Shown here piece by piece: positions 8,085 through 23,765 of a stretch of 64,000 bases of DNA. The position numbers and the translations under genes were made by a program. Source of the DNA: a bacterium (lineage in GTDB: Bacteria; Krumholzibacteriota; Krumholzibacteriia; LZORAL124-64-63); contig JAAEQC010000157.1 of assembly GCA_024231905.1 (NCBI GenBank), forward strand, positions 27,930 to 91,929, given 5' to 3'. How positions within the stretch are numbered: position 1 is the first letter of the stretch; each line of letters opens with the position of its first letter. The notes under the pieces are model-generated. The model was not told the origin of the DNA and searched no databases. It saw nothing but the letters and a program-made list of their open reading frames with translations.

Positions 8085-8299
8085 TTGGCCTGGCGCTCTT
8101 CTTCCTGCTGGGCCGCCCACTTTTTGGGAGCGGCGTAGAGTTTGCAGCTCGAGCATAGCAGACCGGTGGCGTCTCCGCGGCGGCCCTTCCCACAATACCC
8201 ACATGGAGTGCCCGAGTGGTGCTGCTCCTTCGGGGGGCGGTGGGTGATTCGGTATCGCCCAGGGGCGAGCCTCTTCACGGTGCCGAACAAGGTCGTCAT
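8081..8299 (-). CDS. Zinc-ribbon protein (CGYC/CSSC)
   Basis: 72 residues, MTTLFGTVKRLAPGRYRITHRP. CGYCGKGRRGDATGLLCSSCKLY is a complete four-cysteine ribbon with short loops. A lysine-rich C-terminus follows. Coupled by ATGA to neighbours. The N-terminal beta strand pattern F.TVK.L..GRYRI is unusual for the group; function unknown. Confidence 0.7.
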   Translation of the reverse strand: MTTLFGTVKRLAPGRYRITHRPPKEQHHSGTPCGYCGKGRRGDATGLLCSSCKLYAAPKKWAAQQEEERQAK

Positions 8300-8529
8300 G
8301 GTTCGCTCCTTGTGGGAACAACAAACGCTGATGAAACCCCGTGGCCACAACACGCGCTGGTGGTGCCCGGGATGGTCCCGAGGCAGGCGTCGTGGCCTTC
8401 GGGAGTCGGGGGCTGGCCGCAGCGAACGCACGGCGGGTCTTCGCACCCCATTGGGGAACCGTCGAGATAGACCCACCGGTGGCCGTCCCATTTTACGGGG
8501 TGACCTCTTGTGGAGCTGCGGGCGGTCAT
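8296..8529 (-). CDS. Conserved phage zinc protein (HDACLG..SACCGHG)
   Basis: 77 residues. WDGHRWVYLDGSPMGCEDPPCVRCGQPPTPEGHDACLGTIPG and then SACCGHG form a signature I recognise from other phage and prophage early regions: CxxC followed by P.PEGHDACLG and a CCGHG end. The cysteines and histidines probably bind zinc. Biological role undescribed as far as I know. ATGA coupling on both sides fixes the start. Confidence 0.8.
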   Translation of the reverse strand: MTARSSTRGHPVKWDGHRWVYLDGSPMGCEDPPCVRCGQPPTPEGHDACLGTIPGTTSACCGHGVSSAFVVPTRSEP

Positions 8530-8618
8530 TGCTGCCACCAGTCCCAGAAGAGCCAGCCGACGGCGACGGCGTTGAGGGCTGCGACGGCAGCGACCACGAT
8601 CCACCAGGTGATAGTCAT
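8526..8618 (-). CDS. 30-aa single-pass membrane peptide
   Basis: MTITWWIVVAAVAALNAVAVG plus a WLFWDWWQQ end. One transmembrane helix fills residues 4-24, flanked by Trp at both interfaces. Too short for the ORF track; found because its ATG forms an ATGA overlap with the upstream stop and its stop overlaps the next start the same way. Membrane peptides of this sort may tune superinfection immunity or lysis, which is speculation. Confidence 0.6.
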   Translation of the reverse strand: MTITWWIVVAAVAALNAVAVGWLFWDWWQQ

Positions 8619-8800
8619 TTGCATCCGTCCTCTGATTTCTCTCGGCAGCGTGGACAGAGGTCCTTGCCGAGGTCGGAATACCATCCGTCCTTGCGGAGTG
8701 CCTCGCGCATGGATTCGGCGCCGATTGCCGTGATGGTCCGGCGTTCGTCTCCGGTCCGTTTGCAGGAGTCGCAAACAATCCTGGTGAGGGATACTTTCAT
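8615..8800 (-). CDS. 61-aa zinc-ribbon protein
   Basis: MKVSLTRIVCDSCKRTGDER begins the protein and LCPRCREKSEDGC closes it, giving a split zinc ribbon across about 40 residues. Between the pairs lies a helix (AESMREALRKDGWYSD) that resembles the knuckle-helix-knuckle layout of phage DUF-type ribbons. Coupled to neighbours. Function unknown. Confidence 0.7.
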   Translation of the reverse strand: MKVSLTRIVCDSCKRTGDERRTITAIGAESMREALRKDGWYSDLGKDLCPRCREKSEDGCK

Positions 8801-9186
8801 CGCTTCGCGCCCACGGTCCAGCTCTCCGGGTCTCGACTGCGCTGGCACTCCTCACACTTCTCTGCCTCCGGGTAGACGCGGGTGATGGTGGTCCCCTCTG
8901 GGAGGTTGAGCTCGAGCAAGGGCGAGTACTTATTGTCGGCCGTGCCCCAGCGCATTTCCCAGTCAGGCATGAGGTCGTCGTCGTCCGCCACCTGGAGCCC
9001 GAGCATCCACATCCCAGAGTCGTGCTGGCCGTAGGACGCGACGAGGTTGATGCGTTGGCCGGCAGGGTCTTTGATCTGGAAAACGCCCGGCTCGCCCTCG
9101 TCGGAAACGGCGCCCTCTATCTCGAAGCAGTCGTCGCTGTGTCCGTAGAATTGGACCTTGTGGGTGATGAGAGTGGTTGTGTTCAT
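8797..9186 (-). CDS. Hypothetical protein with terminal CEEC
   Basis: 129 residues. The N-terminal 100 residues are strand-rich (THKVQFYGHSDDCFEIEG ... GMWMLGLQVADDDDLMPDW), with an acidic patch. Near the C-terminus EKCEECQRSRDPESW supplies a lone CxxC. No domain named. Translationally coupled to its neighbours. Confidence 0.65.
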   Translation of the reverse strand: MNTTTLITHKVQFYGHSDDCFEIEGAVSDEGEPGVFQIKDPAGQRINLVASYGQHDSGMWMLGLQVADDDDLMPDWEMRWGTADNKYSPLLELNLPEGTTITRVYPEAEKCEECQRSRDPESWTVGAKR

Positions 9187-9410
9187 GTTGTTCCTTTTGT
9201 CTTGGCGCGGAGCCTCTCGTAGAGGTCTGCCAGCTCGCTGTTGTTCATGCGGGTTAGCTCGTCGATGGACTTGAGGTGCTGCTCAAAGCTGAGTCCCTCC
9301 AAAACCAACCGCTGCATCTCGGTGGCGACCGCAGTCATTAGGCGGTGCCTTGTTTTTCCCTGGCGGCGTGGTGCGAACCGCAGCGCCATCGTGGTGAACC
9401 TCCCCATCAT
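9183..9410 (-). CDS. Small basic helical protein
   Basis: 75 residues from MMGRFTTMALRFAPRRQGK. A very basic N-terminus precedes a helix (EMQRLVLEGLSFEQHLKSIDEL). The ATG overlaps the stop of the XRE-type regulator (ATGATG), so the two are co-translated. Possible partner of that regulator, judged from position only. Confidence 0.55.
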   Translation of the reverse strand: MMGRFTTMALRFAPRRQGKTRHRLMTAVATEMQRLVLEGLSFEQHLKSIDELTRMNNSELADLYERLRAKTKGTT

Positions 9411-9793
9411 CCTTCCCCCGGTGGCAGGTCGGGGTCGACTCCAGCTCGCCGGAGAGCCTCCCGACATATTCGCTCGAGGTCTACGAGGTCAGCCGGGCTG
9501 AAGTCGAGCCACGCGAGCGCAAGGAGCGCGCCGACCTTCATGCCGAGCGGGTGGTGGAGCGGAGTGGCCAGGAAGAAGAACCCGTCGCCGGAGGCCTTGG
9601 CTTTGGTGGCGGCAAGTAAAGTCATCCCGAGCCGGCGCGCAGCAATGTGGAGTCGCTTGGTATTGAGCGGCCTCCTGCGGCCATGCTCGACGTCGGAGAG
9701 GTACCCGGACGACACTCCGATGAGCTGTGCGAGCTCGCGCTGGGACACTCCCGCAGCTAGACGGGCGCGGCGAAGTAGGTAACCGAAAGTCAT
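9407..9793 (-). CDS. XRE-family HTH regulator
   Basis: 128 residues. Residues 4-60 are a Cro/C1-type helix-turn-helix: LLRRARLAAGVSQRELAQLIGVSSGYLSDVEHGRRRPL. The C-terminal half (FSPADLVDLERICREALRRAGVD) is helical and may dimerise or sense a partner. It sits inside the early operon, not divergent from a lytic promoter as a typical repressor would. It may act as a late modulator or an antitoxin-like factor. Confidence 0.85.
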   Translation of the reverse strand: MTFGYLLRRARLAAGVSQRELAQLIGVSSGYLSDVEHGRRRPLNTKRLHIAARRLGMTLLAATKAKASGDGFFFLATPLHHPLGMKVGALLALAWLDFSPADLVDLERICREALRRAGVDPDLPPGEG

Positions 9794-9897
9794 CTGGACC
9801 TCCATTTCTCGTCGATGAATTCTGCGAGGACGAGCACAAGACACGCCGACCCAAACAAAAGATGGGCCGCCGACTCAACAGCGAGGTACGTGCTCAT
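9790..9897 (-). CDS. 35-aa membrane peptide
   Basis: MSTYLAVESAAHLLFGSACL and then VLVLAEFIDEKWRSR. One transmembrane span covers residues 9-26, with a charged C-terminus. ATGA overlaps at both ends place it firmly in the operon even though it is below the ORF-track length. Function unknown. Confidence 0.6.
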   Translation of the reverse strand: MSTYLAVESAAHLLFGSACLVLVLAEFIDEKWRSR

Positions 9898-10079
9898 TTG
9901 GCCTCGCAGTTCTTGGCGGCGTCCGCCAGTGTTTTTTGGTCTCCACCCTCGACCCCGCAGGTACCGCAGTACCACCAGAAAACCATCCGGCCACCAGAGT
10001 TTTTCAGCCGGCGGTGGAGGATGCGAAGCGCACGGGAGCTGCACTCGGGGCAGCGGTGGGTCGGCTCGGAGGTGCTCAT
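9894..10079 (-). CDS. 61-aa zinc-ribbon protein
   Basis: CPECSSRALRILHRRLKNSG followed by WYCGTCGVEGG is a classic four-cysteine ribbon with a basic strand between. It resembles transcription-factor-type or Lar-like ribbons and ends with a short helix (KTLADAAKNCEAK). ATGA coupled on both sides. Confidence 0.75.
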   Translation of the reverse strand: MSTSEPTHRCPECSSRALRILHRRLKNSGGRMVFWWYCGTCGVEGGDQKTLADAAKNCEAK

Positions 10080-10309
10080 GGGGTCTCCTTGTTTTTTCGC
10101 TGGATCTTGGTCAGCTCCGCGAGCGCGCACGAGAGGCTGTGAATGATCTTTGCATCCTCTGGACGCTCAAAAAGCCAAAGCTTTCTGGTGGCCCTCGCTA
10201 GCTCGGCGTCGATGCGCTCGATGTTCCTGGCGACCGGGTCCAACGCCGCGAGACGCTTCTCCTCTTCGGCGTCATGGATGGCCGCTGATATTTCACGGTC
10301 GCCTTTCAT
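10076..10309 (-). CDS. Small helical protein
   Basis: 77 residues, almost entirely charged helix (AAIHDAEEEKRLAALDPVARNIERIDAELARATRKL). No cysteines. ATGA-linked to both neighbours. Probably a dimerising or adaptor protein; unknown. Confidence 0.65.
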   Translation of the reverse strand: MKGDREISAAIHDAEEEKRLAALDPVARNIERIDAELARATRKLWLFERPEDAKIIHSLSCALAELTKIQRKNKETP

Positions 10310-11100
10310 GAGGACACCTCTTTGGCCTCCAGGTCAGCCACCCGTTTCTCGAGCCTGGTCATCGCCTTGACCAGGAACTCCGCGGCCACGTCGCCCTCGA
10401 TGTCCCGAACCGACTCGAGCACGGCGACCAGATAATCGCGGGCGCTGGCGCCCGAGTCGCAGTCGGCCATGAAACAATCGAGGATGTCTGGTGGGCGCTG
10501 CGCGTGCGCCCTCTCAACGCAGGCCTTCTCGTTGGCGCAAAACCAACCGCCCAGTCGAAGCACCGCGGTGCCCTTGGAGGCCGGGCGCCCACACCGAGGA
10601 CAGTTTTCACCGATCTCTAGTGGCCCACAGTCGCGTTGGTCCTCGCCGGAGCAAAGCTGCGATTCCTTCTCCATGGCCTCGACGGAGTGAGGCGGGGGCT
10701 GGCCCGTGGCCTCTCTTGTCGCCTCGATCACCCGCTGGTACTCGGCCTTGTCCAACGCGCCGCAGACGGCGGCCATGAAGACCCCATACCACCGGCAGGC
10801 GGGGCAGAACTCCTCGGCAGGCGAAACCCGGCACGGCTCCCCTTGCTTTGCGCCGCACTCACAAACAGCGTCGTCCGTGCTCATCTTCTCGCGGATGAAC
10901 CCCTCCGCAATCCACCCGGCGGTCGTCATGCCGTTGGCGTGCTGGAAAAGAACCTGCTCGCCATCCCTCCAGATGGAAACGCTGAGGCCGATGTAGTCGG
11001 CGATGAATTTCACCCTGTACCCCTGCCACTCTCCAACGACCTCGCGGTGTTGTTGGCGGCGCTCTTTGGGGAAGGCTGGCCAGGTCGGTCTCTCAATCAT
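10306..11100 (-). CDS. Multi-zinc-site phage protein
   Basis: 264 residues. The N-terminal 80 residues (EWQGYRVKFIADYIGLSVSIWRDGEQVLFQHANGM) form a strand-rich domain. Then come CECGAKQGEPC, CPACRWYG, CPRCGRPASKG with WFCANEKAC, and MADCDSG. Several zinc sites are likely; CECGA...GEPC looks like the zinc-finger end found on phage and actinobacterial DNA-binding proteins. The tail is a helix (AAEFLVKAMTRLEKRVADLEAK). Largest member of the zinc array apart from 11614-12735. Confidence 0.7.
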   Translation of the reverse strand: MIERPTWPAFPKERRQQHREVVGEWQGYRVKFIADYIGLSVSIWRDGEQVLFQHANGMTTAGWIAEGFIREKMSTDDAVCECGAKQGEPCRVSPAEEFCPACRWYGVFMAAVCGALDKAEYQRVIEATREATGQPPPHSVEAMEKESQLCSGEDQRDCGPLEIGENCPRCGRPASKGTAVLRLGGWFCANEKACVERAHAQRPPDILDCFMADCDSGASARDYLVAVLESVRDIEGDVAAEFLVKAMTRLEKRVADLEAKEVSS

Positions 11101-11617
11101 CGTCGCTCTCCTTTCGGGCGTCGACCACCTCGGGCGGCATCGCCCCGCTGTCTCCGCATTGGTTCGAGGTGCAAACCCACCGACCCTCCTCGACGTCGCA
11201 CGGTGCCTCGCAGTTCGGGCATCGCCAGACCAGCACGATCTGCTTCCGGAGTTTATCCTGCAGCTCGGCGTTCTGCTTCTCGAGTGAAGCGATGCGCTCG
11301 CTGCGGGCCTCAAGAGCAACTGCCGCTCGGTTGGCGGCGTGGTGGACGCTCTCCATCCCGCCGACGGAGCCGAGCTCATCCATGATGGCCTGGATGGCCT
11401 GGCGGGCCCGCTCACGGAGAGCGGCGTGCTGCTTGTTGCGCGCCTCGTACTGGCCCTGCCAATACCCGACGTCGACCTGGAGCTTGTTTGTTTGCTTCTC
11501 AAGGTTGGCCACCCGTGTGTTGGCCGCGGCCAGTTGCGTGCGCGCCTCCGCACCTTCGTCCGCTAGGAGAAGGCAGGTGCCCGGGCAAGGGTTGCCGTCG
11601 AATGTCTCGTAACTCAT
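11093..11617 (-). CDS. Coiled-coil protein with C-terminal zinc ribbon
   Basis: 174 residues. Residues 20-125 are coiled coil (QLAAANTRVANLEKQTNKLQVDVG ... RIASLEKQNAELQDKL). The C-terminus WRCPNCEAPCDVEEGRWVCTSNQCG is a four-cysteine ribbon. Same architecture as 3345-3923. The start chosen gives an ATGA overlap with the upstream gene. Confidence 0.75.
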   Translation of the reverse strand: MSYETFDGNPCPGTCLLLADEGAEARTQLAAANTRVANLEKQTNKLQVDVGYWQGQYEARNKQHAALRERARQAIQAIMDELGSVGGMESVHHAANRAAVALEARSERIASLEKQNAELQDKLRKQIVLVWRCPNCEAPCDVEEGRWVCTSNQCGDSGAMPPEVVDARKESDDD

Positions 11618-12735
11618 CTGTTTTTCCTTTGCCACTCGTCGTGGGCTTGGATCGCTGGGTAGTTTTCTGGGAAGTCGAGGTAGTCACCAAGCTCCGCGAT
11701 GTACTCGAGCTTGATTTGGAGCAGCAGCGCCTGCCCCTCGTTGAGCTTCTGCACCTCCGCCTTCAGCTCGCCGATGATTTCCATCGACTCGTCCCGGGTG
11801 GTAGAAAGCAGGTCGCGCTCCTCGCGGAGTTCATCCCGCTCATCCAGGGCCCGCTTCGCCGTGCGCTGAGCGATGCTCGACATCCCCTGCGCCTCTTCCA
11901 GCTCATGGATTGTCCGCGCGACGAAACTCTCACCCGTCCGCTCGCAGTCAAAGACACGGATCTGCCCCTCGATGTCAGACGAGATTCTGCGGAGCAGCTC
12001 TCGCACCGCCGGGGTGCAGCTCTTCATCCCAGCCCACTCGCGGTAGCGGCGGACAAGCTCGGCAAAGCCGAACTGCAGCTCGATGGCGGAGTCGACGAGG
12101 GCGGGCCAGCGGTTGCGGGCCCGGGCCATGAAGACGGCGTCGGACTCACGGAGCACGCAGTCGGTGTCGTCCTGCTCGGCGGCGATGATGAGCCCCTGGC
12201 CAGCGACGAAGGTGCCTGGGTCGCTCTGCTCGTACCCGGAGCCAACCTCCCAAGGCCCGGACGACGCAGCGCCGATCACCTCGTGGTCCACCTGCAGGTC
12301 GGTCTTGGAGCCGGCCTCGAAGAACCGAGCAACTTGGTCGGGAGTCAGCGCGGGCTCGAACACCACCCTTCCGGAGAGCAACCCCTTCTCGCCGCAGTGG
12401 CTGCAAAGCCCATCGGACAGCGGAGACCGGCAGGTCGGGCAGTCGATGCTCACCTCGAATGGTTGCTCCGGAGCCGGCCCGGGCTCACAAACGTACCCGC
12501 CGCCGGGGACGACCTCTTTGGTCAGTTGGACGCTGGTCACCTGCAAATCCCGCAGCTCGTGGGTGGCTTTGGGCGCAGGCAAATCCTCAACCCCCAGCGC
12601 CCGCACCTCGTCCATGGTCATCGGTGGCGGCTCGAGCACGCTGCGGTTCTTTTGCGGCAGAAGTTTCGGTGGCGGCGGCAGGGCCTTTTTCCCCTTTGCT
12701 TTCGTGCCCTTCGCCTTTTTCTTTTCAGTCGCCAT
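11614..12735 (-). CDS. Large zinc-ribbon/coiled-coil protein
   Basis: 373 residues. A Lys/Ala-rich N-terminus (KKKAKGTKAKGKKALPPPPK) resembles a nucleic-acid-binding tail. CPTCRSPLSDGLCSHCGEKG is a zinc ribbon near residue 100. A central region (GQGLIIAAEQDDTDCVLRESDAVFMARARNRWPALVDSAIE) is followed by a long coiled coil (RDELREERDLLSTTRDESMEIIGELKAEVQ). AGGAG lies six bases before the ATG. Function unknown; size and ribbon suggest a DNA- or RNA-associated role. Confidence 0.75.
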   Translation of the reverse strand: MATEKKKAKGTKAKGKKALPPPPKLLPQKNRSVLEPPPMTMDEVRALGVEDLPAPKATHELRDLQVTSVQLTKEVVPGGGYVCEPGPAPEQPFEVSIDCPTCRSPLSDGLCSHCGEKGLLSGRVVFEPALTPDQVARFFEAGSKTDLQVDHEVIGAASSGPWEVGSGYEQSDPGTFVAGQGLIIAAEQDDTDCVLRESDAVFMARARNRWPALVDSAIELQFGFAELVRRYREWAGMKSCTPAVRELLRRISSDIEGQIRVFDCERTGESFVARTIHELEEAQGMSSIAQRTAKRALDERDELREERDLLSTTRDESMEIIGELKAEVQKLNEGQALLLQIKLEYIAELGDYLDFPENYPAIQAHDEWQRKNR

Positions 12736-13441
12736 CGGTCACTCCTCTTGGCAGTTGGTCCCAGTTGTTGTTTGCTCCCTCGTCGTCTTGTGCCCATGCG
12801 CCCGAGACCCCGCAGGCGCACACCATCCGGATGCGACCGCCGACGAGCTCGAGCGAGCGATGGATATCGAGGCAGGCGGGGTTCGGGCATGGCTGGTCGC
12901 TGTCGTGTTCTCCGGCGCGAACCTTGTCCGGCATGGGAGAGGCTTGGGCGACGGGGATCGCCCGGGGCTCCCACACCATGGGGTCGCTCTTCATCTCGTC
13001 GGCGGTCACCATGTCCTCGACGTAATCCGCGCGCGACCGCCAGACCCGGGTGGCGTTGTGGAACGGTCCCACCCAGACGTGGCGCGGTCCCATCGCTGCG
13101 AATGCGTCGCCGCAGGTGGTGAGGTGGCTAGCAGCTGCGTCGCGGCAGCCGGCCCAGGTTTTGATCGGCTGGCTCTCCCAGTCGCACCAGGGGCAGAAGG
13201 CTCGGTACGGATGCTCGCGGTCGAGGATGCTGTACCGCGGGCCGAACAACATGTTCAGCCTCTTGATTTGGGCCGGCAACAGCTCTTTAATGCTCAGATC
13301 CTCGTCGGGGGTCAGCATCGCCCTCAGCTGGTCGGGCTCCAGCTCGAGCGCCAGAACCCGGCCAGTCCACTCTGGGTCGAGCGCGCGGAGGTCCGCCTCC
13401 ATTTTCTTGAGGAGTTCCATGCGCTTCTTGGAGTTGGTCAT
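12725..13441 (-). CDS. Zinc-ribbon protein with Lar-like C-terminus
   Basis: 238 residues. CPWCDWESQPIKTWAGC and CPNPACLDIHRSLELVGGRIRMVCACGVSGAWAQDDEGANNNWDQLP are two cysteine regions. The second has the strand-CxC-GAWA-WN arrangement of Lar-type restriction-alleviation ribbons. The N-terminal part (PDQLRAMLTPDEDLSIKELLPAQIKRL) is helical. Restriction alleviation is a weak analogy, not a finding. ATGA-coupled upstream. Confidence 0.65.
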   Translation of the reverse strand: MTNSKKRMELLKKMEADLRALDPEWTGRVLALELEPDQLRAMLTPDEDLSIKELLPAQIKRLNMLFGPRYSILDREHPYRAFCPWCDWESQPIKTWAGCRDAAASHLTTCGDAFAAMGPRHVWVGPFHNATRVWRSRADYVEDMVTADEMKSDPMVWEPRAIPVAQASPMPDKVRAGEHDSDQPCPNPACLDIHRSLELVGGRIRMVCACGVSGAWAQDDEGANNNWDQLPRGVTDGD

Positions 13442-13731
13442 GGCGTTCCTTTCCGGCGGCAGCCGAAGCAGTAGACCTCGGTCGCCTCCTCTCCGCACTC
13501 GGCGCAGATGGCTGTGCCCGCAGCCACACACCGCGGGCACGGGTTTTCATCCCCGCAGTCCTCTGGGCAGTCGGCGGGGATCACCAGAGCCTTGAGCTTG
13601 TTGGCCCAGCGGGTCACTCGGACGGGCTGGATGAGGATCTGGTCTGGCTCGGCCAGCTCCACCTCGCGCTCCATGTCGGCGACGACTCGCCGCGCAATAT
13701 CAAAGACGGATTCAAGGTCGGCGTTGCTCAT
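13438..13731 (-). CDS. Triple-CxxC zinc protein
   Basis: 97 residues. CPEDCGDENPCPRCVAAGTAICAECGEEATEVYCFGCRRKG contains four closely spaced cysteine pairs, enough for two zinc ions in a treble-clef or double ribbon. The N-terminal 60 residues are helix plus strand. ATGA on both sides. Confidence 0.75.
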   Translation of the reverse strand: MSNADLESVFDIARRVVADMEREVELAEPDQILIQPVRVTRWANKLKALVIPADCPEDCGDENPCPRCVAAGTAICAECGEEATEVYCFGCRRKGTP

Positions 13732-13919
13732 TTCATCTCCTGAATTTCAAATGAGATTCTGTATCCACCAGCTTGCATCCACCCGGCCAATTGGCGGACG
13801 GTCGCTGCTATGAACCACCGGGGCACCGGACGGCCGCGAGCAGCACACAGCCACAGGCGCCGGCGATGCCTGCGGGTGCCTGTGCTGCTCTTCTTCCGGT
13901 GGCGCTTCCGGCCCCTCAT
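13728..13919 (-). CDS. Basic MRxRxRxKK family small protein (paralogue A)
   Basis: 63 residues, MRGRKRHRKKSSTGTRRHRR then an amphipathic region (PRWFIAATVRQLAGWMQAGG). The N-terminus matches 15654-15833 (MRKRQRKKNLLGTRRSRRGW), so the two are probably paralogues. The ATG overlaps the upstream stop as ATGA. A ribosomal-protein-like or RNA-binding basic arm is plausible; function unknown. Confidence 0.65.
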   Translation of the reverse strand: MRGRKRHRKKSSTGTRRHRRRLWLCAARGRPVPRWFIAATVRQLAGWMQAGGYRISFEIQEMK

Positions 13920-14185
13920 TCGTTTCCTCCTGGGATGACATCCATCGCCTCGCCCTCGTGGACGATGAGCCGGCGGTCTCCGGCCTGGCACTCGCCGAGC
14001 TCGTTGGCGCCGATGATCTCGAGCGCGACTTCCTGCGCGGGGTTGGGGCCCGCGGGCACGCTCACAATGAAACCGCAGCGGCAGCGGACGGTGGCGTAGC
14101 CCTTGGGCCACGAGGACAGCTCCAGCACCTCGGGCTCGAGGCAGGCCGGGCAGTTGCATTTGATGCGGCCGTCGGGAAGGCTCAT
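13916..14185 (-). CDS. Zinc-ribbon protein
   Basis: 89 residues. MSLPDGRIKCNCPACLEPEV and YATVRCRCGFIVSVPAG form a ribbon with CxCxxC and CxC halves. The rest (ALEIIGANELGECQAGDRRLIVHEGEAMDV) is strand-rich. Starts one base inside the upstream stop (TGATG). Confidence 0.7.
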   Translation of the reverse strand: MSLPDGRIKCNCPACLEPEVLELSSWPKGYATVRCRCGFIVSVPAGPNPAQEVALEIIGANELGECQAGDRRLIVHEGEAMDVIPGGNE

Positions 14186-14583
14186 CAATCGACCCCTCTC
14201 ATGATTCGGAGCGCCGCCTCGGGCGGCGGGGCGGTGCGGCGAGTGCAGCCTTCTCGGGTGCAGGCGCCGCCATCGTTGTACGCCGGATACTCTGTGCACA
14301 TCCTTGGGCGTGGTTTGGAGTGGATGAGACACCGCCTGGCTGATCGGTCGAAGTGGCGGCAGCTATACTCGTGGCAACCGCTCTCTTTCCATCCGCCCTT
14401 GCTCGGCGGTCGCCAACCGAGATACACGAGCATCCCAGGGAGCATCTCATCGGCGGGGTAAAACATCTTGAGACACTCCAACCGGCGGAGGTGACCAGGG
14501 CCGAACGGCAATTCCACCGGGTCACAGCAATGTCCGGTGCAGCGGTTGGTCTCGACGCGGGCTGGCCAAAGTGGCAGGCTCAT
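14185..14583 (-). CDS. YkgJ-like Cys-rich metal-binding protein
   Basis: 132 residues. TNRCTGHCCDPVELPFGPGH, then CLKMFYPADE, CHEYSCRHFDRSARRCLIHSKPRPRMCTEYPAYNDGG. The order CxxxCC ... C ... R.C.I...RP..C..YP is the signature of the YkgJ/CxxCxxCC (UPF0153) family of putative iron- or zinc-chelating proteins. Substrate and role in phages are not known. Co-translated with neighbours. Confidence 0.8.
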   Translation of the reverse strand: MSLPLWPARVETNRCTGHCCDPVELPFGPGHLRRLECLKMFYPADEMLPGMLVYLGWRPPSKGGWKESGCHEYSCRHFDRSARRCLIHSKPRPRMCTEYPAYNDGGACTREGCTRRTAPPPEAALRIMRGVD

Positions 14584-14798
14584 AGATCAGGCCTCATCCA
14601 TTCGCCACGGACATGGATGGCGCCGCAGTCCCTGCACCAGATGACCCGCGGGATGACGCCGGGGTCGAGGGTGCTACGGTGGGCACAGTCTTCCAGCGCG
14701 GCGAGCCGGTCGGCGTCGGCCACCAGGCACGCCAGGATAGAACCACGTGGGCCGTCTCCGCGCACATGGTCGCGGTCGGCTTTCGTCGTTTCAGCCAT
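14580..14798 (-). CDS. Small zinc-knuckle protein
   Basis: 72 residues. A helix (LACLVADADRLAALEDCAHRS) is followed by VIWCRDCGAIHVRGEW, a single ribbon half with a possible Cys/His partner in EDCAH. The start overlaps the sulfotransferase-like gene by eight bases. This short form recurs as a stand-alone ribbon in phage early regions. Confidence 0.7.
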   Translation of the reverse strand: MAETTKADRDHVRGDGPRGSILACLVADADRLAALEDCAHRSTLDPGVIPRVIWCRDCGAIHVRGEWMRPDL

Positions 14799-15375
14799 CG
14801 GCCATCTCCAGCTCCAGCAGTCCGTCGTAGCACTTCGGCGACCGCGCCACGACCACCTCCGCCATCTTGGTCGGGTCGACGTGGATCCCATGCTCGCCCA
14901 GGAAGCAAGCGATATCCTGCGACGCGAAGAGCGGGCGCGAAAGCACGCGCTCGAACTTCACCGAGAAGACCGGCCCGCGGCGGGCGAGGATCTTTTGGAC
15001 CGTACCCATGTCCCCTCGGATGGATGCCTGCATGGCCTGGCGGTGCTTGCGCTTGACGATCTGCCCTCCGAGGATCCGGAGGAACTTCGCCATCGACCTG
15101 GACTGCTCCTTGGGGTCGCGGTGCAGCAGGATGAAGACGTACTCCCAGCCCTCGCGCGGCGGCACAAAGCGATTTGAATCCAACAGCTTGACGGCCTTAC
15201 CCTCGGCCTCCCTGAGCCAACCGGTCTTCTCTGGCAGGTCCGTCATCCGACGATCCTCGTAGCTCGAGTGATTGTCGGCGAGGACATCCATTCCTCCGTG
15301 GTGGAGCATGCGCATCATCATCGATGAACCGCAGCGGGTGAGTCCGGTGACCGCGAGGATTTTCTTGTTCGACAT
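14791..15375 (-). CDS. Sulfotransferase-like P-loop protein
   Basis: 194 residues. The N-terminus KKILAVTGLTRCGSSMMMRMLHHGGMDVLADN matches the PAPS-binding loop of sulfotransferases (G.PRSGTSMV..ML..GG). Downstream, VFILLHRDPKEQSRSMAKFLR resembles the 3'-phosphate-binding RDP..S helix. A C-terminal helix-strand region follows. It is shorter than full cellular enzymes (250-300) but complete in its core motifs. A sulfotransferase could modify a host glycan, a tail component or a small molecule. A hairpin at 15402-15435 separates it from the upstream gene. Confidence 0.75.
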   Translation of the reverse strand: MSNKKILAVTGLTRCGSSMMMRMLHHGGMDVLADNHSSYEDRRMTDLPEKTGWLREAEGKAVKLLDSNRFVPPREGWEYVFILLHRDPKEQSRSMAKFLRILGGQIVKRKHRQAMQASIRGDMGTVQKILARRGPVFSVKFERVLSRPLFASQDIACFLGEHGIHVDPTKMAEVVVARSPKCYDGLLELEMADG

Positions 15376-15401
15376 CTGCCTTCCTTGTTCGTGGTGGAAA
15401 C

Positions 15402-15435
15402 AGCTCCCGGCCCATCCTTCTCCGGGCCGGGAGCT
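15402..15435 (-). terminator. Strong intercistronic hairpin
   Basis: AGCTCCCGGCCC and GGGCCGGGAGCT form a perfect 12-bp stem with a 10-base loop, seven bases after the stop of 15442-15654. Only GTTTCC follows, so it may attenuate or stabilise mRNA ends instead of acting as a full intrinsic terminator. Confidence 0.55.
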
Positions 15436-15441
15436 CGGAGT

Positions 15442-15654
15442 TCATATCGTCAGGCCGGTTGCCACCCGGCCCTCCCGCGCGCTCCGCGCTGCGATCTGGC
15501 ACAGAGCCAAGCGCCAGAGTTGGCAGTGATGAAGGAGCCCAGCCGGAGACACCGGTGTCACTTCTCCGGCCCGGGCGCGGGGCTTCGGCCACGGTATACA
15601 GCTGGCTGGGCTGCAGATTGGGCCGAGGAAAAAACTGAGGAATACCCAGATCAT
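15442..15654 (-). CDS. Small protein with hydrophobic N-terminus
   Basis: 70 residues, MIWVFLSFFLGPICSPASCI. A short hydrophobic N-terminus resembles a signal or anchor segment; cysteines follow at about positions 14 and 19. The ATG is in a TGATG overlap with the upstream gene, which is the main reason to accept it. The remainder is not distinctive. Ends just before a strong hairpin. Confidence 0.5.
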   Translation of the reverse strand: MIWVFLSFFLGPICSPASCIPWPKPRARAGEVTPVSPAGLLHHCQLWRLALCQIAARSAREGRVATGLTI

Positions 15655-15833
15655 CAGGTGGTGGGCTCCACCGAGAGATTCATCTCCACCCACTCGAGCG
15701 GGTGGTGGAACACCCGCACCCCGCGGTAGCGCCGACCGTGGATCGCTTTGACGGCCCGGGCCAGGCCCAGCTCCCAGCCGCGGCGACTGCGGCGGGTTCC
15801 CAGGAGGTTCTTTTTGCGTTGGCGCTTTCTCAT
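15654..15833 (-). CDS. Basic MRxRxRxKK family small protein (paralogue B)
   Basis: 59 residues, MRKRQRKKNLLGTRRSRRGW, ending WVEMNLSVEPTT. The N-terminus parallels 13728-13919; both then show a central aromatic segment and a short strand. ATGA overlap with the upstream gene sets the start. RNA- or ribosome-binding is conceivable given the charge. Confidence 0.65.
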   Translation of the reverse strand: MRKRQRKKNLLGTRRSRRGWELGLARAVKAIHGRRYRGVRVFHHPLEWVEMNLSVEPTT

Positions 15834-16498
15834 CCGGCATCCTCCCATTCGATCCCGAGTACCCGGATGGAAGCGGCGGCCCCTTCGTCCCCCTCGGCGG
15901 CCTCGACGATGTGCTCGATGATTACTCCGAGGTTCAGCACGGCCCGCTCATCGATGTCGATGTGCTGCAGGAGCTGGGCGCGCTCTTTGATGAGCCCGAA
16001 GGCCCTCGAGACCATCGTCAGCTGGCGCTCGAGCCGGGCGACCTCTTCCTCGGCGATGTCGGCGCGGGCGGTCTCGGCCTGCTCCGCCGCCGCGAGGCGG
16101 CCACACTCGGCGCACGTTGGCTCGGGTCTGTCCCACCCGGTGAGTGCCCCAGGGGCCACACCCTCGATCACGTCGGCGAAGCTGGAGGCCTCAACGGTGG
16201 TGATGGGCGCGGGGTGGAGCTGGGTACAGGCACGCCGCTGCTCGTCGGGCAGGTCCACCACGAGGTCGTCGACCCCGCGGTAGATATGAGGCAGCGCGAT
16301 CTCCGTCTCTTCGACGTTGAACTCCCTGGCCACCCGGGTCCGGACCGCCTGGGCCACCCGTTTGAGCTTGGCCACGAGCAGGTCGTCGACGCTGGGGCGC
16401 TCGATGGAGCTGCCCAGCTCCGCCTCGATGCCAGCGTTGAGTTCGCCGACGAAGATGGCGAGCATGGCCATGCGGTTCGTGTCGCCAGCCTGGGGCAT
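15830..16498 (-). CDS. Coiled-coil protein with CAEC
   Basis: 222 residues. The N-terminal 90 residues look globular (MLAIFVGELNAGIEAELGSSIERPSVDDLL). CAECGRLAAAEQAETARADIAEEEVARLERQL combines a zinc knuckle and a coiled coil near the middle. The C-terminus (LNLGVIIEHIVEAAEGDEGAAAS) is helical and acidic. Function unknown; the knuckle plus coil layout recurs in the array. Confidence 0.7.
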   Translation of the reverse strand: MPQAGDTNRMAMLAIFVGELNAGIEAELGSSIERPSVDDLLVAKLKRVAQAVRTRVAREFNVEETEIALPHIYRGVDDLVVDLPDEQRRACTQLHPAPITTVEASSFADVIEGVAPGALTGWDRPEPTCAECGRLAAAEQAETARADIAEEEVARLERQLTMVSRAFGLIKERAQLLQHIDIDERAVLNLGVIIEHIVEAAEGDEGAAASIRVLGIEWEDAG

Positions 16499-17208
16499 CA
16501 GCCTCCCTCCATTTTCTTGAGCGCTTTCAAGATGTTGAAGGTGTCCCCTTCGGTTGCGTCCTGGCGCTTGGCCAGGGACTGGACCACCTCGAGGATAGCC
16601 TGGGCGAAGTTATACTCGACGATGCTGCTATTCTCGATGGCGGCGTACGCTTGCTGCGCCCGGGCGAGGGCCTCCTCGGTGGGTCCGACCGCGGCGGCGG
16701 GGACCACCAGGGTCTGGCTCGACCGCTCCCGAATGGACTGGATGAGCAGGGCGACATGCTCAGGCTCCTGCTCGTAGATAGTGATCAGCGCCGCGAGGTC
16801 GGCACGCACCCGCTCCAGCCTGGCACTCAGTCGAGCCGCCTCCATCGCCGAGCGGCGGGACTCCTCTACCCGGCTTTCGTAATGCCGCTTGTAGGTGTCC
16901 CTCTCTTGGATAGTGGCGGCGGCGGCCGACACGGTGGGCCGACGCTCCAGCTCCTGGATCCGCATCCGCATCCGTCGGCACCGGCCATCGGCTTTGTTGG
17001 CACGAAGGGACTCGGACACGTGGGCCTCGTCCTGCTCGCGCCCGTCGGTCTCGCGCTGGGTCTCGCGCGCGTCGGCCCGGGCGGCGTAATCCACGAGCGT
17101 CTTGTGGATCGCCGCCCACGGAACCCAACCGGCATCCATCCCTGCGGGGGTTACTGCAACCGTGGTTACTGCGGAAACCATCTCCTCAAACAGTCTGTCT
17201 TTGCTCAC
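16498..17208 (-). CDS. Coiled-coil phage protein
   Basis: 236 residues, no cysteine pairs. N-terminal globular part (VPWAAIHKTLVDYAARADARETQRETDGREQDEAH), then long heptad stretches (RCRRMRMRIQELERRPTVSAAAATIQERDTYKRHYESRVEESRRSAMEAARLSARLERVRADL). TGATG-type or adjacent coupling to 15830-16498. A structural, filament-like role is possible; unknown. Confidence 0.7.
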   Translation of the reverse strand: MSKDRLFEEMVSAVTTVAVTPAGMDAGWVPWAAIHKTLVDYAARADARETQRETDGREQDEAHVSESLRANKADGRCRRMRMRIQELERRPTVSAAAATIQERDTYKRHYESRVEESRRSAMEAARLSARLERVRADLAALITIYEQEPEHVALLIQSIRERSSQTLVVPAAAVGPTEEALARAQQAYAAIENSSIVEYNFAQAILEVVQSLAKRQDATEGDTFNILKALKKMEGG

Positions 17209-17363
17209 TTTTTTCTCCCTTTAAGTCGCACCACCAGCCGGTGGCACCAGGTGCATTCTAGCCGGCGACCCTTGCGGACGATCCCGGCACCGACGTGGAA
17301 GCAGGCCGGGCACACGAGGAGTGGCTCGGCGGGCGTGCTGGGCTTGCCGAAGTTGAATGTCAC
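17205..17363 (-). CDS. 52-aa zinc-ribbon protein (GTG start)
   Basis: MTFNFGKPSTPAEPLLVCPACFHVGAGIVRKGRRLECTWCHRL: a complete four-cysteine ribbon with a basic end (VRLKGRKK). The track start at 17402 would overlap the previous gene by 43 bases; the GTG at 17363 gives the GTGA overlap used throughout this operon and has GAGG upstream, so it is preferred. Confidence 0.7.
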   Translation of the reverse strand: MTFNFGKPSTPAEPLLVCPACFHVGAGIVRKGRRLECTWCHRLVVRLKGRKK

Positions 17364-17551
17364 TCGGCCTCGCTCTCCCGGCCTGCTTCCTTCTCTAGCC
17401 ATGCGAGCACATCCCCGATCTCAGACACGAGCCGGACCGCCGTCGCGAGTCTGCGACCGGACTCGATGTCGGTGACCATCCAGGTGCCGTGCTCGCCGGC
17501 GTTCTCGACCAGCTTGATCTGGCCGTTGACGATGAACTCCCGCTGGCTCAT
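17360..17551 (-). CDS. Small hypothetical phage protein
   Basis: 63 residues, MSQREFIVNGQIKLVENAGE. A strand-rich N-terminus and a helix (AVRLVSEIGDVLAWLEKEAG). ATGA overlap with the upstream gene. No family known. Confidence 0.65.
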   Translation of the reverse strand: MSQREFIVNGQIKLVENAGEHGTWMVTDIESGRRLATAVRLVSEIGDVLAWLEKEAGRESEAE

Positions 17552-17850
17552 TTGCTCTCCGCCGGGAAGTCGAAGCTCTTGAAGGTGGCACCGGGCACGA
17601 AGGTCAGCGCCTCCGCGACAGCGTAGCTCCCGTCGGCGTTGCGCTGCTGGGTGGTGACCTGGACCAGGCATCCGCCCTCATCGAGACCGCTTCCAACCTC
17701 CATCACCTTGGTGGACTTCATCCACCCCTCTTCTTCCGAGCTGGCTTTGCAGAGCAGTTTGAACAGGTCGCCATTGCCGTAAACGACCAGGTCGGACACG
17801 TTCTTCTTGGCGCCGTTGACGTTGCTGTTGTGCAGGGATTTGTCTTTCAT
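17548..17850 (-). CDS. Nested in-frame product (internal start)
   Basis: 100 residues starting MKDKSLHNSNVNGAKKNVSD, with ACAGGAGGCTGAA directly upstream of the ATG. The strand-rich, GWMKSTKVMEV-containing domain is similar in style to stand-alone phage proteins placed beside SSB and recombination genes. Whether it is a separate gene fused in this lineage or an alternative start is open. Confidence 0.5.
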   Translation of the reverse strand: MKDKSLHNSNVNGAKKNVSDLVVYGNGDLFKLLCKASSEEEGWMKSTKVMEVGSGLDEGGCLVQVTTQQRNADGSYAVAEALTFVPGATFKSFDFPAESK

Positions 17851-18576
17851 TTCAGCCTCCTGTTGGTCCGGCTCGAGGCCGGTGAGTGTCGTCAGCACCG
17901 CGGCAAGTGGGTCGCCGCGGCGGATCTCGTCGTGCTCTTGAAGCAGGACGCCCGCCGAGTGATGCCGGCGGAATTCATCTTGCTGGGCCCACTTGAGCAT
18001 GGCCGCCATGAACATCTCGACGCTCGAGATCCAGAGATCCCTGTCGCTGTTCTTCGTAAGCGCCCAGGCCTTCTCCGAGTCGACTCCGAGAATCGCGCAG
18101 TCGAGTTCCTCATGGGCTGTGGCCAGGGGGTCGTCGATGTCCGAGCTGTAGTCTTCGAGCGTCCGGACCGGCTCGCCGACCTCAATGCTGCCGGCGGACA
18201 CTGCCTCGTGCCGACCCCAGGCGAGCTCGCCGCCGGGCTCGCGCCAGGAGGCAAGACCGGTGGCCCGGGTGATGGCGGTGCCTGCATCCCCGATGCTCGC
18301 ACCGTCCGGGATGAGAACTTTGTGATCACACCCCGCAGGGCAGGTGAACAAAATCCAGTTCTGCTCGACGGTCTGCTCTGGGCCGACCGCAAGGTCGAAG
18401 CCCATCGACTTGAAATTATACGGGCTCACCGCTTCGATCTTCGCGCGGGTCTCCGCGTGGGCCTTGCGCTCCGCCACCAACAACCCTTCGGTCCGCCGGA
18501 CGCGGTCGATCTGGTCCTCAAGCGCGGGGCACCCGTCGCACTCCTTCTGGAAGCGGGCTCTCTCTTCTGGTGTCAT
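17548..18576 (-). CDS. Two-part phage protein with possible internal start
   Basis: 342 residues. The N-terminal part has CDGCPALEDQIDRVRRTEGLLVAERKAHAETRAK (knuckle plus coil), CPAGCDHKVLIPDGAS, and a helical region (WISSVEMFMAAMLKWAQQDEFRRHHSAGVLLQEHDEI) typical of the phage DUF that ends near GDPLAAV. The final 100 residues (MKDKSLHNSNVNGAKKNVSDLVVYGNGDLFKLLCKASSEEEGWMKSTKVMEV) look like an independent single-domain phage protein. A perfect AGGAGG lies before that internal ATG, so both long and short products may be made. Confidence 0.7.
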   Translation of the reverse strand: MTPEERARFQKECDGCPALEDQIDRVRRTEGLLVAERKAHAETRAKIEAVSPYNFKSMGFDLAVGPEQTVEQNWILFTCPAGCDHKVLIPDGASIGDAGTAITRATGLASWREPGGELAWGRHEAVSAGSIEVGEPVRTLEDYSSDIDDPLATAHEELDCAILGVDSEKAWALTKNSDRDLWISSVEMFMAAMLKWAQQDEFRRHHSAGVLLQEHDEIRRGDPLAAVLTTLTGLEPDQQEAEMKDKSLHNSNVNGAKKNVSDLVVYGNGDLFKLLCKASSEEEGWMKSTKVMEVGSGLDEGGCLVQVTTQQRNADGSYAVAEALTFVPGATFKSFDFPAESK

Positions 18577-18785
18577 TGGGCTGGATCCTCTCCGGCGGTG
18601 GTGATAATGATGGGCGTCGATGGCCTCATCCAGGAGTAGATCCGGTCGGATCCAGCTCCAATCAGGAGCCCTGCGATCACACCCAGGAGGACCACCAGCT
18701 GCCAGAAGTTCCGCTCGAGCCGGACGGCTTGTTCCACCGCGTGCTTCTCGTGGGCCAGGGCCCGGATCTCATCCGTAGTCCTCAT
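18573..18785 (-). CDS. Single-pass membrane protein, 70 aa
   Basis: N-terminal charged helix (TDEIRALAHEKHAVEQAVRLERN) followed by one transmembrane span (FWQLVVLLGVIAGLLIGAGS) and a short polar tail. ATGA overlaps with both neighbours. Layout resembles small i-spanin- or membrane-adaptor-like proteins, but position far from the lysins argues against spanin. Confidence 0.65.
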   Translation of the reverse strand: MRTTDEIRALAHEKHAVEQAVRLERNFWQLVVLLGVIAGLLIGAGSDRIYSWMRPSTPIIITTAGEDPAQ

Positions 18786-18913
18786 GACCCAGGCCTCCGG
18801 CGCGTGAGCTGCTGCGCGACCCCGGCCCGCCGCGCGATGCGATACCCGATTGCCAGGCCGCCCGCGAGGGCGATCCCAACACCGAGGACCGTTATAAACC
18901 AGTAGGATTCCAT
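18782..18913 (-). CDS. 43-aa membrane peptide
   Basis: MESYWFITVLGVGIALAGGL then AIGYRIARRAGVAQQLTRRRPGS. One transmembrane helix with a very basic cytoplasmic tail (N-out/C-in by the positive-inside rule). AGGAGA precedes the ATG; the stop overlaps the next start (ATGA). Below the ORF-track length. Confidence 0.65.
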   Translation of the reverse strand: MESYWFITVLGVGIALAGGLAIGYRIARRAGVAQQLTRRRPGS

Positions 18914-18922
18914 GCGCTTCTC

Positions 18923-19315
18923 CTAGAAGGGGATGTCGTTGTCGTCCGCACCTGGGGCCGCCTCGGAGTCACGGGTGCCCGCGCCCTGGGCCCCTGCGTC
19001 GGGCCGGCCGAGGAACAGAATCTGGAACGCGACGACCTCGACCTTCTTCCTTTTGTTCCCGTCGCGGTCCTCCCACTCTCTGGTTTGCCAGCGCCCTTCG
19101 GCGTAGACAGGCGAGCCGGCGTCGAGATACTCGGCGCAGCTCTCTGCATTTTTCTCCCAGACGACTACTGTAATCCACTCTGTTTTCTGCTCGTCGCGGC
19201 GGCCGGTGTTGACCGCGACAGAGAGGTTGGCCACGGCCTTGCCGTTTGCGGTGTACCGGAGCTCAGGCTTTTGCCCGAGGTTTCCTACCACGGTGACTTT
19301 TGCTACCCCTTGCAT
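18923..19315 (-). CDS. ssb: Single-stranded DNA-binding protein
   Basis: 130 residues. MQGVAKVTVVGNLGQKPELRYTANGKAVANLSVAVNT and the following TEWITVVVWEKNAESCAEYLDAGSPVYAEGRWQTREWEDRDGNKRKKVEVVA form the canonical SSB OB-fold. A short linker (GAQGAGTRDSEAAPG) leads to the acidic DDNDIPF tip that recruits replication partners. Length is typical of phage SSBs. It overlaps the phosphatase-like gene by 13 bases and would serve replication and RecT-type recombination encoded at 33-35 kb. Confidence 0.95.
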   Translation of the reverse strand: MQGVAKVTVVGNLGQKPELRYTANGKAVANLSVAVNTGRRDEQKTEWITVVVWEKNAESCAEYLDAGSPVYAEGRWQTREWEDRDGNKRKKVEVVAFQILFLGRPDAGAQGAGTRDSEAAPGADDNDIPF

Positions 19316-19737
19316 GATGCCTCCTTCAGGAGTTTGTAGACGTGCCTGTTGTGAGTCCGGGTCGCAGGACCGAGCGGCGGGAGCCCCAACTCCTCAGCGA
19401 TCCATTTCGCCACCGCTGGCGAGCGGTTGAGCCCGGCCTCGCAGTGGACAAGGAATCCGCCGCAGCCCTCATGGATCATCCGCCGCACGAACCGGACGAC
19501 GTCCGCCGCCTGTTCTGGACTCATCGGCTTGTAGCTCGCGAGGATGCTGGTGCGCAACCGCGCGTTGATTGGCTTGCACATGTCGATGTCGTTGCATCGG
19601 ACATGTAGGATATTGAACCACCCCGCCTGGAGCCGGACATCCGCCGACCCCGGATCTTGGATGGACACCACCGCGGTGTATTTGTCGGGGCGAGTATCCT
19701 CGGCGCCCTCGCGGGAGGTGAAGCGCAGGTGGATCAT
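19303..19737 (-). CDS. Tyrosine/dual-specificity phosphatase-like protein
   Basis: 144 residues. FLVHCEAGLNRSPAVAKWIAE contains the HCxxGxxRS phosphatase loop, with Cys99 as nucleophile and Arg105. KYTAVVSIQDPG and FNILHVRCNDID match the earlier strands of the fold, and D52 region could supply the general acid. Substrate may be a phosphoprotein, RNA cap-like end or inositide. Phage homologues (DSP-like) are known in many tailed phages, role unclear. ATGA-coupled to a 39-aa membrane peptide upstream. Confidence 0.85.
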   Translation of the reverse strand: MIHLRFTSREGAEDTRPDKYTAVVSIQDPGSADVRLQAGWFNILHVRCNDIDMCKPINARLRTSILASYKPMSPEQAADVVRFVRRMIHEGCGGFLVHCEAGLNRSPAVAKWIAEELGLPPLGPATRTHNRHVYKLLKEASCKG

Positions 19738-19853
19738 CCGTACCTCACTATCAGCATGGCGGCCAAGGCCCAGACCGTCACCACCAGGGTGGTGACCAGC
19801 TTCGATGGCCGCGGGCCCGGGCGCTCAAGCTCGGGCTGGTTGTTGGTGTTCAT
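19734..19853 (-). CDS. 39-aa membrane peptide
   Basis: MNTNNQPELERPGPRPSKLV then TTLVVTVWALAAMLIVRYG. One C-terminal transmembrane span with a polar N-terminus. ATGA overlaps at both ends. Too short for the track. Could anchor or inhibit a host membrane protein; unknown. Confidence 0.6.
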   Translation of the reverse strand: MNTNNQPELERPGPRPSKLVTTLVVTVWALAAMLIVRYG

Positions 19854-20831: not shown

Positions 20832-21044
20832 TCTGGCGAACGTGAGTCCGCCGTGCGTTGGTCGTTGCTTTCAGCGGTGCCCGAATCCGACGCGGGTGAA
20901 AAAGGTCTGTTACCGTGGGTGTGCGTTGGGTACTCCGCGCTGCGTCCGAGTTTGCTTTTCTGTTGGATCAATAACAGATCTGTGGCGGCAGCGCAAGAAA
21001 AAAGGTGAGAGACCGCGGGGGACTTGTTGGGTGACCCGGTGGAG
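20832..21044. other. Intergenic region, promoter candidate zone
   Basis: 213 bases between the end of 21045-21365 and the start of 20298-20831. It contains the terminator hairpin described below, an ACAGATCTGT palindrome (20974-20983) and, further on, GTTACCGTGGGTGTGCGTTGGGTAC (imperfect relative of the 5497 repeat). A minus-strand promoter is expected; no clean -35/-10 pair stands out. Confidence 0.45.
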
Positions 21045-21964: not shown

Positions 21965-22579
21965 CTACTCGATGTCGGCGTCGACTGCACGGCGAACATT
22001 GGCTGCTCGGCGCCCAAGGGCCCGGGCATACCCCCACCTGATTTGTGGGCCGCCAGAGTTGTATCTGGCGTAGCACCTGGCCGTGGTTGGATAGTCGCAT
22101 CGGCCCTTGTGCCATGCCATGAGGAAGGCCGCCATGTAGGTGGCAAGGACTGGATCCCGCAGCGCCCTGGTCTGATCTTCTCTGCTCAGCCCATCCCAGT
22201 CTGCATCTGGAAAATCTGGAAGGCCATACATAGCTTGGACCAGGTCGTTCCAAGCGCCGGACATGAGTCCGACCATTCGCATGATCTGCCAGGGCCCGCG
22301 CTCCCCAGAGCTGCCCGGGGCTTCGAGCTGGAAGTAGGACTCGTTCCAGCAGATGGCGGCCAGCAGGTTGGGATCCACCTGGTAGCGATGGCTGGCGTCC
22401 AAAATGGCTCCGGCCAAACGGTCAGCGTAGTCTTCGGCCTTCGGGTTGATTTTGACGATGTAGGTAGCCAGGCGCCCGGCGCGTCCGCGCGGATGCTTGG
22501 CGACGAAGCCCTGCGCCGCCGGCGGCGCAGGGGCGGTGATGTTTCCGGCCATCATGATGACCACGAGCAGATAAGTCAT
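21965..22579 (-). CDS. SLT-domain lytic transglycosylase
   Basis: 204 residues. The N-terminus (MTYLLVVIMMAGNITAPAPP) is a signal/anchor sequence, so export to the periplasm is likely. Residues 60-150 carry the SLT fold: LLAAICWNESYFQLEAPGSSGERGPWQIM has Glu80 as probable catalytic acid and the GERGPWQIM loop of family members. YNSGGPQIRWGYAR near the C-terminus fits the late Y/G motif. AAGGAG precedes the ATG. It follows the amidase and holin candidate and should cut glycan strands during lysis or DNA entry. Confidence 0.85.
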   Translation of the reverse strand: MTYLLVVIMMAGNITAPAPPAAQGFVAKHPRGRAGRLATYIVKINPKAEDYADRLAGAILDASHRYQVDPNLLAAICWNESYFQLEAPGSSGERGPWQIMRMVGLMSGAWNDLVQAMYGLPDFPDADWDGLSREDQTRALRDPVLATYMAAFLMAWHKGRCDYPTTARCYARYNSGGPQIRWGYARALGRRAANVRRAVDADIE

Positions 22580-22629
22580 GGTTAACTCCTTGTATGTTAT
22601 CGGGAAAACCGCTGCCAGAAGGCGCGGGT

Positions 22630-23499
22630 CTATCGCTCGCGGAATCCCTTGGTGGGACTGGTCGGATCCCACGACTGTGGGATCTGGAATCCGGTGCCGT
22701 AGGTGTCACCCTGGCGGCCGGCATCTCCCGGCAGCGCGCCTGTGCGTTCCATCCACGGGACGGCGATCTTCTGCCACGCCTGCCACCCTGGATCACACTC
22801 GCGGTTCTCACTGCCCTGCCGGTGTGCCCAGACCCGATCAAAGGGCCGGCCGTTGACCTTGAACTCCTCGAGCAGCAGGTCGAGCAGCACGTCGCAGGCC
22901 TTGACCTGCGCGTCGGTGACATCGTCTGGGCCCCCGCCTGGCTTCCAGTGGTAGCCAGGGAACCCCTCAGGGTTGCCGTCGATCTCGATGCCAAGGCCCC
23001 ACAGCGACATCTTGTGGCCGTGCCAGATGTGCATGTCCCATGGGTGGCACAGGATGATCCGCCCGCCAAGGGTCACATGCATGTGGGCGTTGACCCGGAA
23101 GTATCGAGCCGGATTTTCTCCGAGGCGGCAGGCGGTCCGATGCAGGACCACACCCCGGAACTTTGGCCACCGGTTTCCCCACTCTGGCTTGCCGTTCTTC
23201 GGCGCCGCCAGCTGCCCGCGGTAGTCGTACACCTCGACCCCGTTGATGATGCGCATTACGCTGTTCGGGGTGGCGTCTCCGACAGCCTTGTGGAGTGCTG
23301 CCATGGTCGCCGGGCCAACAACGCCGTCAGCGTCGAGGCCAGCTCGGCGCTGAAACGAGAGAACACCATCGAGAGTCTCGCTCCCGAAGTCGCCGTCGGC
23401 CCCCCATGCCGGGAGGTGAATGCCGGCGGACAACAGGAGCTCCTGCACGCGCCGAACGCCTGACCCACGGTCGCCTTGCTGAATCCATTGGTTGCTCAT
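22630..23499 (-). CDS. N-acetylmuramoyl-L-alanine amidase endolysin
   Basis: 289 residues. Residues 7-72 form a peptidoglycan-binding domain (GSGVRRVQELLLSAGIHLPAWGADGDFGSETLDGVLSFQRRAGLDADGVVGPAT). Residues 112-240 are amidase_2-like: VVLHRTA gives His120, MHVTLGGRIILCHPWDMHIWHG a central strand set, GIEIDGNPEG the E/D region and VWAHRQGSENRECDPG His226 with the C/D ligand. No N-terminal signal, so release needs the adjacent holin candidate. The start forms an ATGA overlap with that gene. Confidence 0.9.
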   Translation of the reverse strand: MSNQWIQQGDRGSGVRRVQELLLSAGIHLPAWGADGDFGSETLDGVLSFQRRAGLDADGVVGPATMAALHKAVGDATPNSVMRIINGVEVYDYRGQLAAPKNGKPEWGNRWPKFRGVVLHRTACRLGENPARYFRVNAHMHVTLGGRIILCHPWDMHIWHGHKMSLWGLGIEIDGNPEGFPGYHWKPGGGPDDVTDAQVKACDVLLDLLLEEFKVNGRPFDRVWAHRQGSENRECDPGWQAWQKIAVPWMERTGALPGDAGRQGDTYGTGFQIPQSWDPTSPTKGFRER

Positions 23500-23765
23500 G
23501 GTGTCTTCCACGGGAGCGACAGGCCGCCCTTGATGCTGGCCCCGGCGAGCCCGAGCATCCCGAGGATCCCGGTGAGCACCTGGTTCACGGTTGGCGATCC
23601 CTGCGTCAGGATGGGAATGAAAATCCCCGCCGTCGGACTGATGATGGCCACGGCCCAGACAAGCCACCTCAGGGTCGGCCGGACCCGTGGCGGGATCGGC
23701 GGCGCCTCGATGTTCGGTCCGGCGGTGCCGCCGGGCACAGTGGGGGTGTTGTTTTCGTCAGGCAT
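23496..23765 (-). CDS. Holin candidate
   Basis: 89 residues. A Pro-rich N-terminus is followed by two hydrophobic segments, LRWLVWAVAIISPTAGIFIPIL and VNQVLTGILGMLGLAGASIKGGL, and a short charged tail: the size and two-helix layout of class II holins. Placed directly upstream of the amidase, with an eight-base overlap with DUF5131. Holin function is inferred from topology and neighbours. Confidence 0.7.
   Translation of the reverse strand: MPDENNTPTVPGGTAGPNIEAPPIPPRVRPTLRWLVWAVAIISPTAGIFIPILTQGSPTVNQVLTGILGMLGLAGASIKGGLSLPWKTP

Follow-up and report, generated by a model that had tools for sequence, protein, structure and literature searches.

Five very short open reading frames (ORFs), all on the minus strand, lie among the genes of a 64,000-base stretch of DNA (the window), and they raise the question of whether they are genes, whether they form one set of small membrane peptides, as a sequence-only reading of this DNA had proposed, and what such peptides might do there. 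The answer that we favor, at a probability of roughly 75%, is that all five encode genuine single-span inner-membrane proteins, mostly coupled to their neighbors through ATGA stop-start overlaps, of which three are core genes around the SSB gene and two are accessory, rather than parts of one system. The window is part of a contig of 91,929 bases (C157), one of 236 in a draft bacterial genome, and runs from base 27930 to base 91929. The contig carries a direct repeat of 141 bases at both ends (window with L002, L003), which makes it very probable that this is a complete circular phage genome, ~91.8 kb long, inside the draft bacterial assembly. The host of the five ORFs is a little-known tailed phage, with nearly every gene in the window on the minus strand and 34 same-strand joins made by a 4-base ATGA overlap.

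We found one sister phage, IMGVR_UViG_3300005253_000050 (93.6 kb, end repeats of 121 bases), with which most of the gene order is common and whose capsid protein is 82% identical; its coordinates carry the labels L011 and G058 (L011:15058-15357 equals G058 35058-35357). Beyond it, searches of IMG/VR and GTDB contigs with TerL, capsid, sheath, 83-aa neighbor and 43-aa alignments returned no close relative, the TerL query also matching distant sequences. The capsid search across 80 genomes of the host class matched solely the phage's own contig, and neither megablast of the region nor tblastn of the individual peptides (E up to 10) gave a match among phages. Contigs matched by a 342-aa neighbor (17548-18576) were rejected as relatives since they have only its C-terminal domain in common: its last ~90 residues form a protein of their own (~90 aa) in contigs from other phages (L005:9995-10288; L006:10037-10297), one of them with 44% GC.

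Inspection of the ORFs bore out their positions and the single span claimed for each: 39 aa at 19734-19853, 43 aa at 18782-18913, 70 aa at 18573-18785, 35 aa at 9790-9897 and 30 aa at 8526-8618, with a 17-residue Kyte-Doolittle mean of 2.10-2.46 in the hydrophobic stretch. All five are thus of the size and form of small phage membrane proteins (30-70 aa, under 100 codons, one predicted span each). Exact ATGA coupling, which had been ascribed to every one of them, holds for the 30-, 35-, 39- and 70-aa ORFs, which overlap a real neighbor's frame on either side, but not for the 43-aa ORF, which starts with ATGG 9 nt past the SSB stop, has a ribosome site of its own (AGGAG) and is joined in this way only at its 3′ end, to the 70-aa gene. 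The 39-aa protein has a basic, proline-rich N-terminal tail and, toward its C-terminal end, a span at about residues 19-36; the positive-inside rule suggests an N-in/C-out topology for it. In the 70-aa protein a charged N-terminal helix precedes a span at about residues 29-45 and a short C-terminal tail.

Comparison with the sister phage divides the five. Broken frames in relatives whose flanking genes are intact had been named as the observation that would speak against these genes; in the one relative at hand, the 39-, 43- and 70-aa frames are open, hydrophobic and syntenic, whereas nothing corresponding to the 30- and 35-aa ORFs is present there. The homologues lie at L011:2922-3056 (39 aa, 56% identity), L011:3616-3747 (43 aa, 49% identity) and L011:4211-4636, the last a 141-aa protein to which the N-terminal 43 residues of the 70-aa protein are 46.5% identical; E values of the syntenic matches are about 1e-9 to 1e-10. 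The junctions recur in part, the 43-aa homologue likewise starting 9 nt past SSB and ending in ATGA, and the 39-aa homologue having ATGA at its start and being followed by tRNA-Met. The sister 141-aa form carries an extra Cys-containing C-terminal domain (its predicted structure, mean pLDDT 58, was too poor for a fold search), and as both forms end in EDPA(Q/P), ~71 internal codons, which hold that domain, were either lost in the window lineage or gained in the sister.

These three genes differ at 35-42% of nucleotide positions. When the same substitutions were placed randomly, the frame stayed open and kept a span at least as good in 24 (43-aa), 108 (39-aa) and 13 (70-aa) of 5000 trials, and the observed amino-acid identity was reached in 3 (39-aa), 64 (43-aa) and 21 (70-aa) of 2000. 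Their dN/dS values of 0.83, 0.67 and 0.43, against 0.26 for SSB and 0.18-0.38 for neighbors, point to weak purifying selection in this comparison with one relative, and a helix-face conservation test was significant for none of the three (p = 0.08 for the 43-aa protein, 0.14 and 0.46). Because their frames are open, hydrophobic and syntenic in the sister phage, the 39-, 43- and 70-aa ORFs are not chance ORFs, and we regard them, from sequence, as certain or near-certain genes. The same comparison dissolves the proposed set: since the sister phage is without the 30- and 35-aa ORFs, the five are better described as three core genes plus two phage-specific ones.

The description of the locus as lying between early genes was not confirmed either. 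The core three surround the SSB gene (18923-19315, minus strand; PF00436, 7.8e-32; ~60% identical in the sister), 2-4 kb downstream of lysis genes on the same strand. This block (21965-23765), identified by PF01464, PF01510 and PF01471, comprises an SLT transglycosylase (21965-22579), an amidase (22630-23499) and a membrane protein (23496-23765), all on the minus strand; the last may act as a holin, judging from its hydrophobicity and neighbors. Between the 39-aa gene and SSB lies a dual-specificity-phosphatase-like gene (19303-19737, minus strand; phrog_5614, 9.7e-16; weak PF00782) whose product has an HCEAGLNRS loop (CX5R); it is missing from the sister phage, where a tRNA-Met (CAT) at L011:3062-3134 occupies its place. 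The position of the core three is compatible with a part in lysis timing, in exclusion or in anchoring SSB at the membrane.

The 39-, 43- and 70-aa proteins could be accessory lysis proteins (a second holin, an antiholin or lysis-timing factors) co-transcribed with the amidase and transglycosylase, as their conserved order downstream on the same strand might suggest. A candidate sigma-70-like promoter, TTGACA-17-TAAAAT (11/12; 23862-23834, minus strand), sits in the terminal part of gene 23758-24507 and immediately precedes the holin-like gene; it is unchanged in the sister phage (G058 about 19202), and its codons TTG and ACA look unusual for a GC-rich genome. We nevertheless consider a lysis role unlikely. 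A holin-like protein is already encoded in the lysis block, which is set apart from the core three by gaps of 74 and 213 bp; SSB stands among the core three, and no holin family was matched in PHROG, Pfam or NCBIfam. Endolysin adjacency, examined as a test for holins, likewise fails to single out the core three, which lie 2-4 kb off while the amidase adjoins another membrane gene. The 213-base gap (20832-21044) contains no called gene and has a 206-base counterpart at the matching place in the sister phage.

Superinfection exclusion or a modulation of the host membrane that keeps out other phages, the 30- and 35-aa ORFs being fast-changing versions, seems doubtful to a similar degree. The sequence-only reading had likewise named the exclusion of other phages, along with host membrane machinery as a target, as what the peptides may do. 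Such a role would suit a phage with genes for a serine recombinase and an XRE-type regulator, two of the five ORFs are phage-specific as expected for accessory genes of this sort, and exclusion proteins that are known often reside in membranes, P22 SieA being one (PMC10883804). Yet the core three have been kept vertically, not exchanged, and no likeness to a defence or exclusion family appeared in PADLOC, PHROGs, Pfam or NCBIfam. Indeed, these collections gave no convincing match for any of the five window ORFs; the sister 43-aa protein alone gave a weak partial PADLOC match (2TM effector, E 0.004, 21 residues). Phage holins and P22 SieA (PMC10883804) resemble the five as small or membrane-bound phage proteins at the inner membrane, but the five have no family match and a holin-like gene already stands beside the amidase.

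For the two phage-specific ORFs, a further alternative is that they are chance open frames within GC-rich spacer. They have no homologue in the sister phage or, by short-peptide search, in IMG/VR. The 30-aa ORF, which is Trp-rich and offers an alternative in-frame start at ATG 8624, is flanked upstream by a Cys-rich 61-aa gene (8615-8800, minus strand; phrog_17873, E=2.2e-6) and downstream by a 77-aa gene (8296-8529, minus strand) whose own ATG overlaps the 30-aa stop and which is present in the sister phage (~51% identical to L011:15058-15357, G058 35058-35357); the 35-aa ORF is flanked by a gene of 61 aa on one side and an XRE-type HTH gene on the other. Random sequence filling these gaps would be open with P = 0.73 (30-aa gap) and 0.45 (35-aa gap), and genes without coupling read ATGA at 9/29 ends and 12/29 starts, rates that are probably inflated by missed small genes. 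The expected count of open gaps running from ATGA to ATGA is consequently not negligible, and ATGA alone is weaker evidence for these two ORFs. The sequence-only argument that ATGA coupling plus a span makes chance ORFs unlikely thus stands for the 39-, 43- and 70-aa genes, whose sister frames are open, and was overstated in its ATGA part for the 30- and 35-aa ORFs.

Other features argue against chance. When trained on the long genes of this phage, a gene caller based on codon usage picks out all five ORFs, and in each the sense frame outscores the two other sense frames. The 30-aa ORF scores +10.4 (versus -11.0 and -7.8), while the +3.0 of the 35-aa ORF is low (versus -11.6 and -15.5 in its other sense frames). 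Among 198 ATG ORFs of 28-75 codons, collected as an off-frame control from five wrong frames of 38 kb of long genes, ATGA occurred at both ends in 5 and a span in 8, but the two features never coincided (0/198). Dropping the 30- and 35-aa ORFs would moreover leave ~85-105-bp gaps among densely packed genes. Chance is therefore an improbable source of the pair, and the combination of ATGA coupling, span and codon usage indicates that both are probably real genes.

The adjacency of the 43-aa gene and SSB suggests that its product might tether DNA coated with SSB to the membrane and so hold replication there, with its Arg-rich tail bound to ssDNA or the acidic SSB tip. In both phages the gene follows SSB directly at a 9-nt gap and SSB ends with an acidic ..IPF tip. 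The 43-aa tail has six Arg, five of them invariant (Arg28, 29, 38, 39 and 40), as are Gly11, Ala15, Gly19 and Gly23 of the span, a type of spacing known for helix packing. The positive-inside rule would place this protein N-out/C-in with the tail in the cytoplasm, but the same rule by itself also yields Arg-rich tails. No spanning ORF starts <=60 nt past the SSB stop in 14 other phages' SSB genes (0/14), a count on which we also rejected the pair as a general phage arrangement, and a match to the NCBIfam replication family 'podovir_small' was far under cut-off. Membrane anchors are known in phage replication, namely phi29 p16.7 and p1, of which p16.7 binds to two components used in phi29 replication, the terminal protein and ssDNA (PMC4974454). 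These too are membrane proteins tied to replication genes, but no terminal protein was seen in the window phage and no homology or family match was found for the 43-aa protein. On balance, an SSB anchor is a long shot, and its strongest form, in which the 43-aa protein is a dedicated SSB tether and the core three make up a membrane-attached replication or host-takeover complex unique to this lineage, is very unlikely.

Under our preferred reading of three core and two accessory membrane proteins, translation would proceed mostly through stop-start (ATGA) coupling inside long same-strand gene runs. The likeliest mechanism would be that each peptide inserts in the host inner membrane as a single helix and, in the course of infection, acts on a membrane complex of host or phage origin via helix-helix packing or a short cytoplasmic tail.

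Fremin et al. (2022; cited in PMC11364881) reportedly catalogued small phage proteins (<100 aa) in bulk. Tiny phage membrane genes are common and nearly all uncharacterised, and here the conserved three, at a constant position around SSB, can be parted from the probable two. The claim that automated annotation would miss such genes is doubtful, because a simple caller finds all five and public phage records list similar CDSs, even hydrophobic ones of 29 and 37 aa near SSB. Phage genomes hold over two million small (<100 aa) protein genes (PMC11323111), which the five resemble in being tiny, unannotated and packed among other phage genes, and from which they differ in lying outside any named family, with three of them conserved in one sister phage only. 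YohP (27 aa), a small single-span bacterial membrane protein consisting of little more than its transmembrane helix (PMC7549839), offers a likeness in form, the five products also amounting to roughly one helix each, with the difference that they are phage-encoded; a relation in sequence is not expected. The five ORFs would accordingly represent new families of predicted membrane proteins belonging to a very common phage kind. They are small, testable peptides, and if it is true that one of them tethers replication or sets lysis timing, a class mostly listed without a function would gain one.

Several further ORFs with hydrophobic stretches were seen in the same phage. At 27355-27984 (minus strand) the window encodes a 209-aa protein without a family match whose N-terminal stretch is highly hydrophobic (3.19), and at 15442-15654 (minus strand) a 70-codon ORF has ATGA at both ends, a weakly hydrophobic stretch (1.76) and a poor codon score (-3.0). 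Outside the window, two more small one-span ORFs lie on the minus strand at L003:4151-4339 (62 aa) and 4506-4715 (69 aa).
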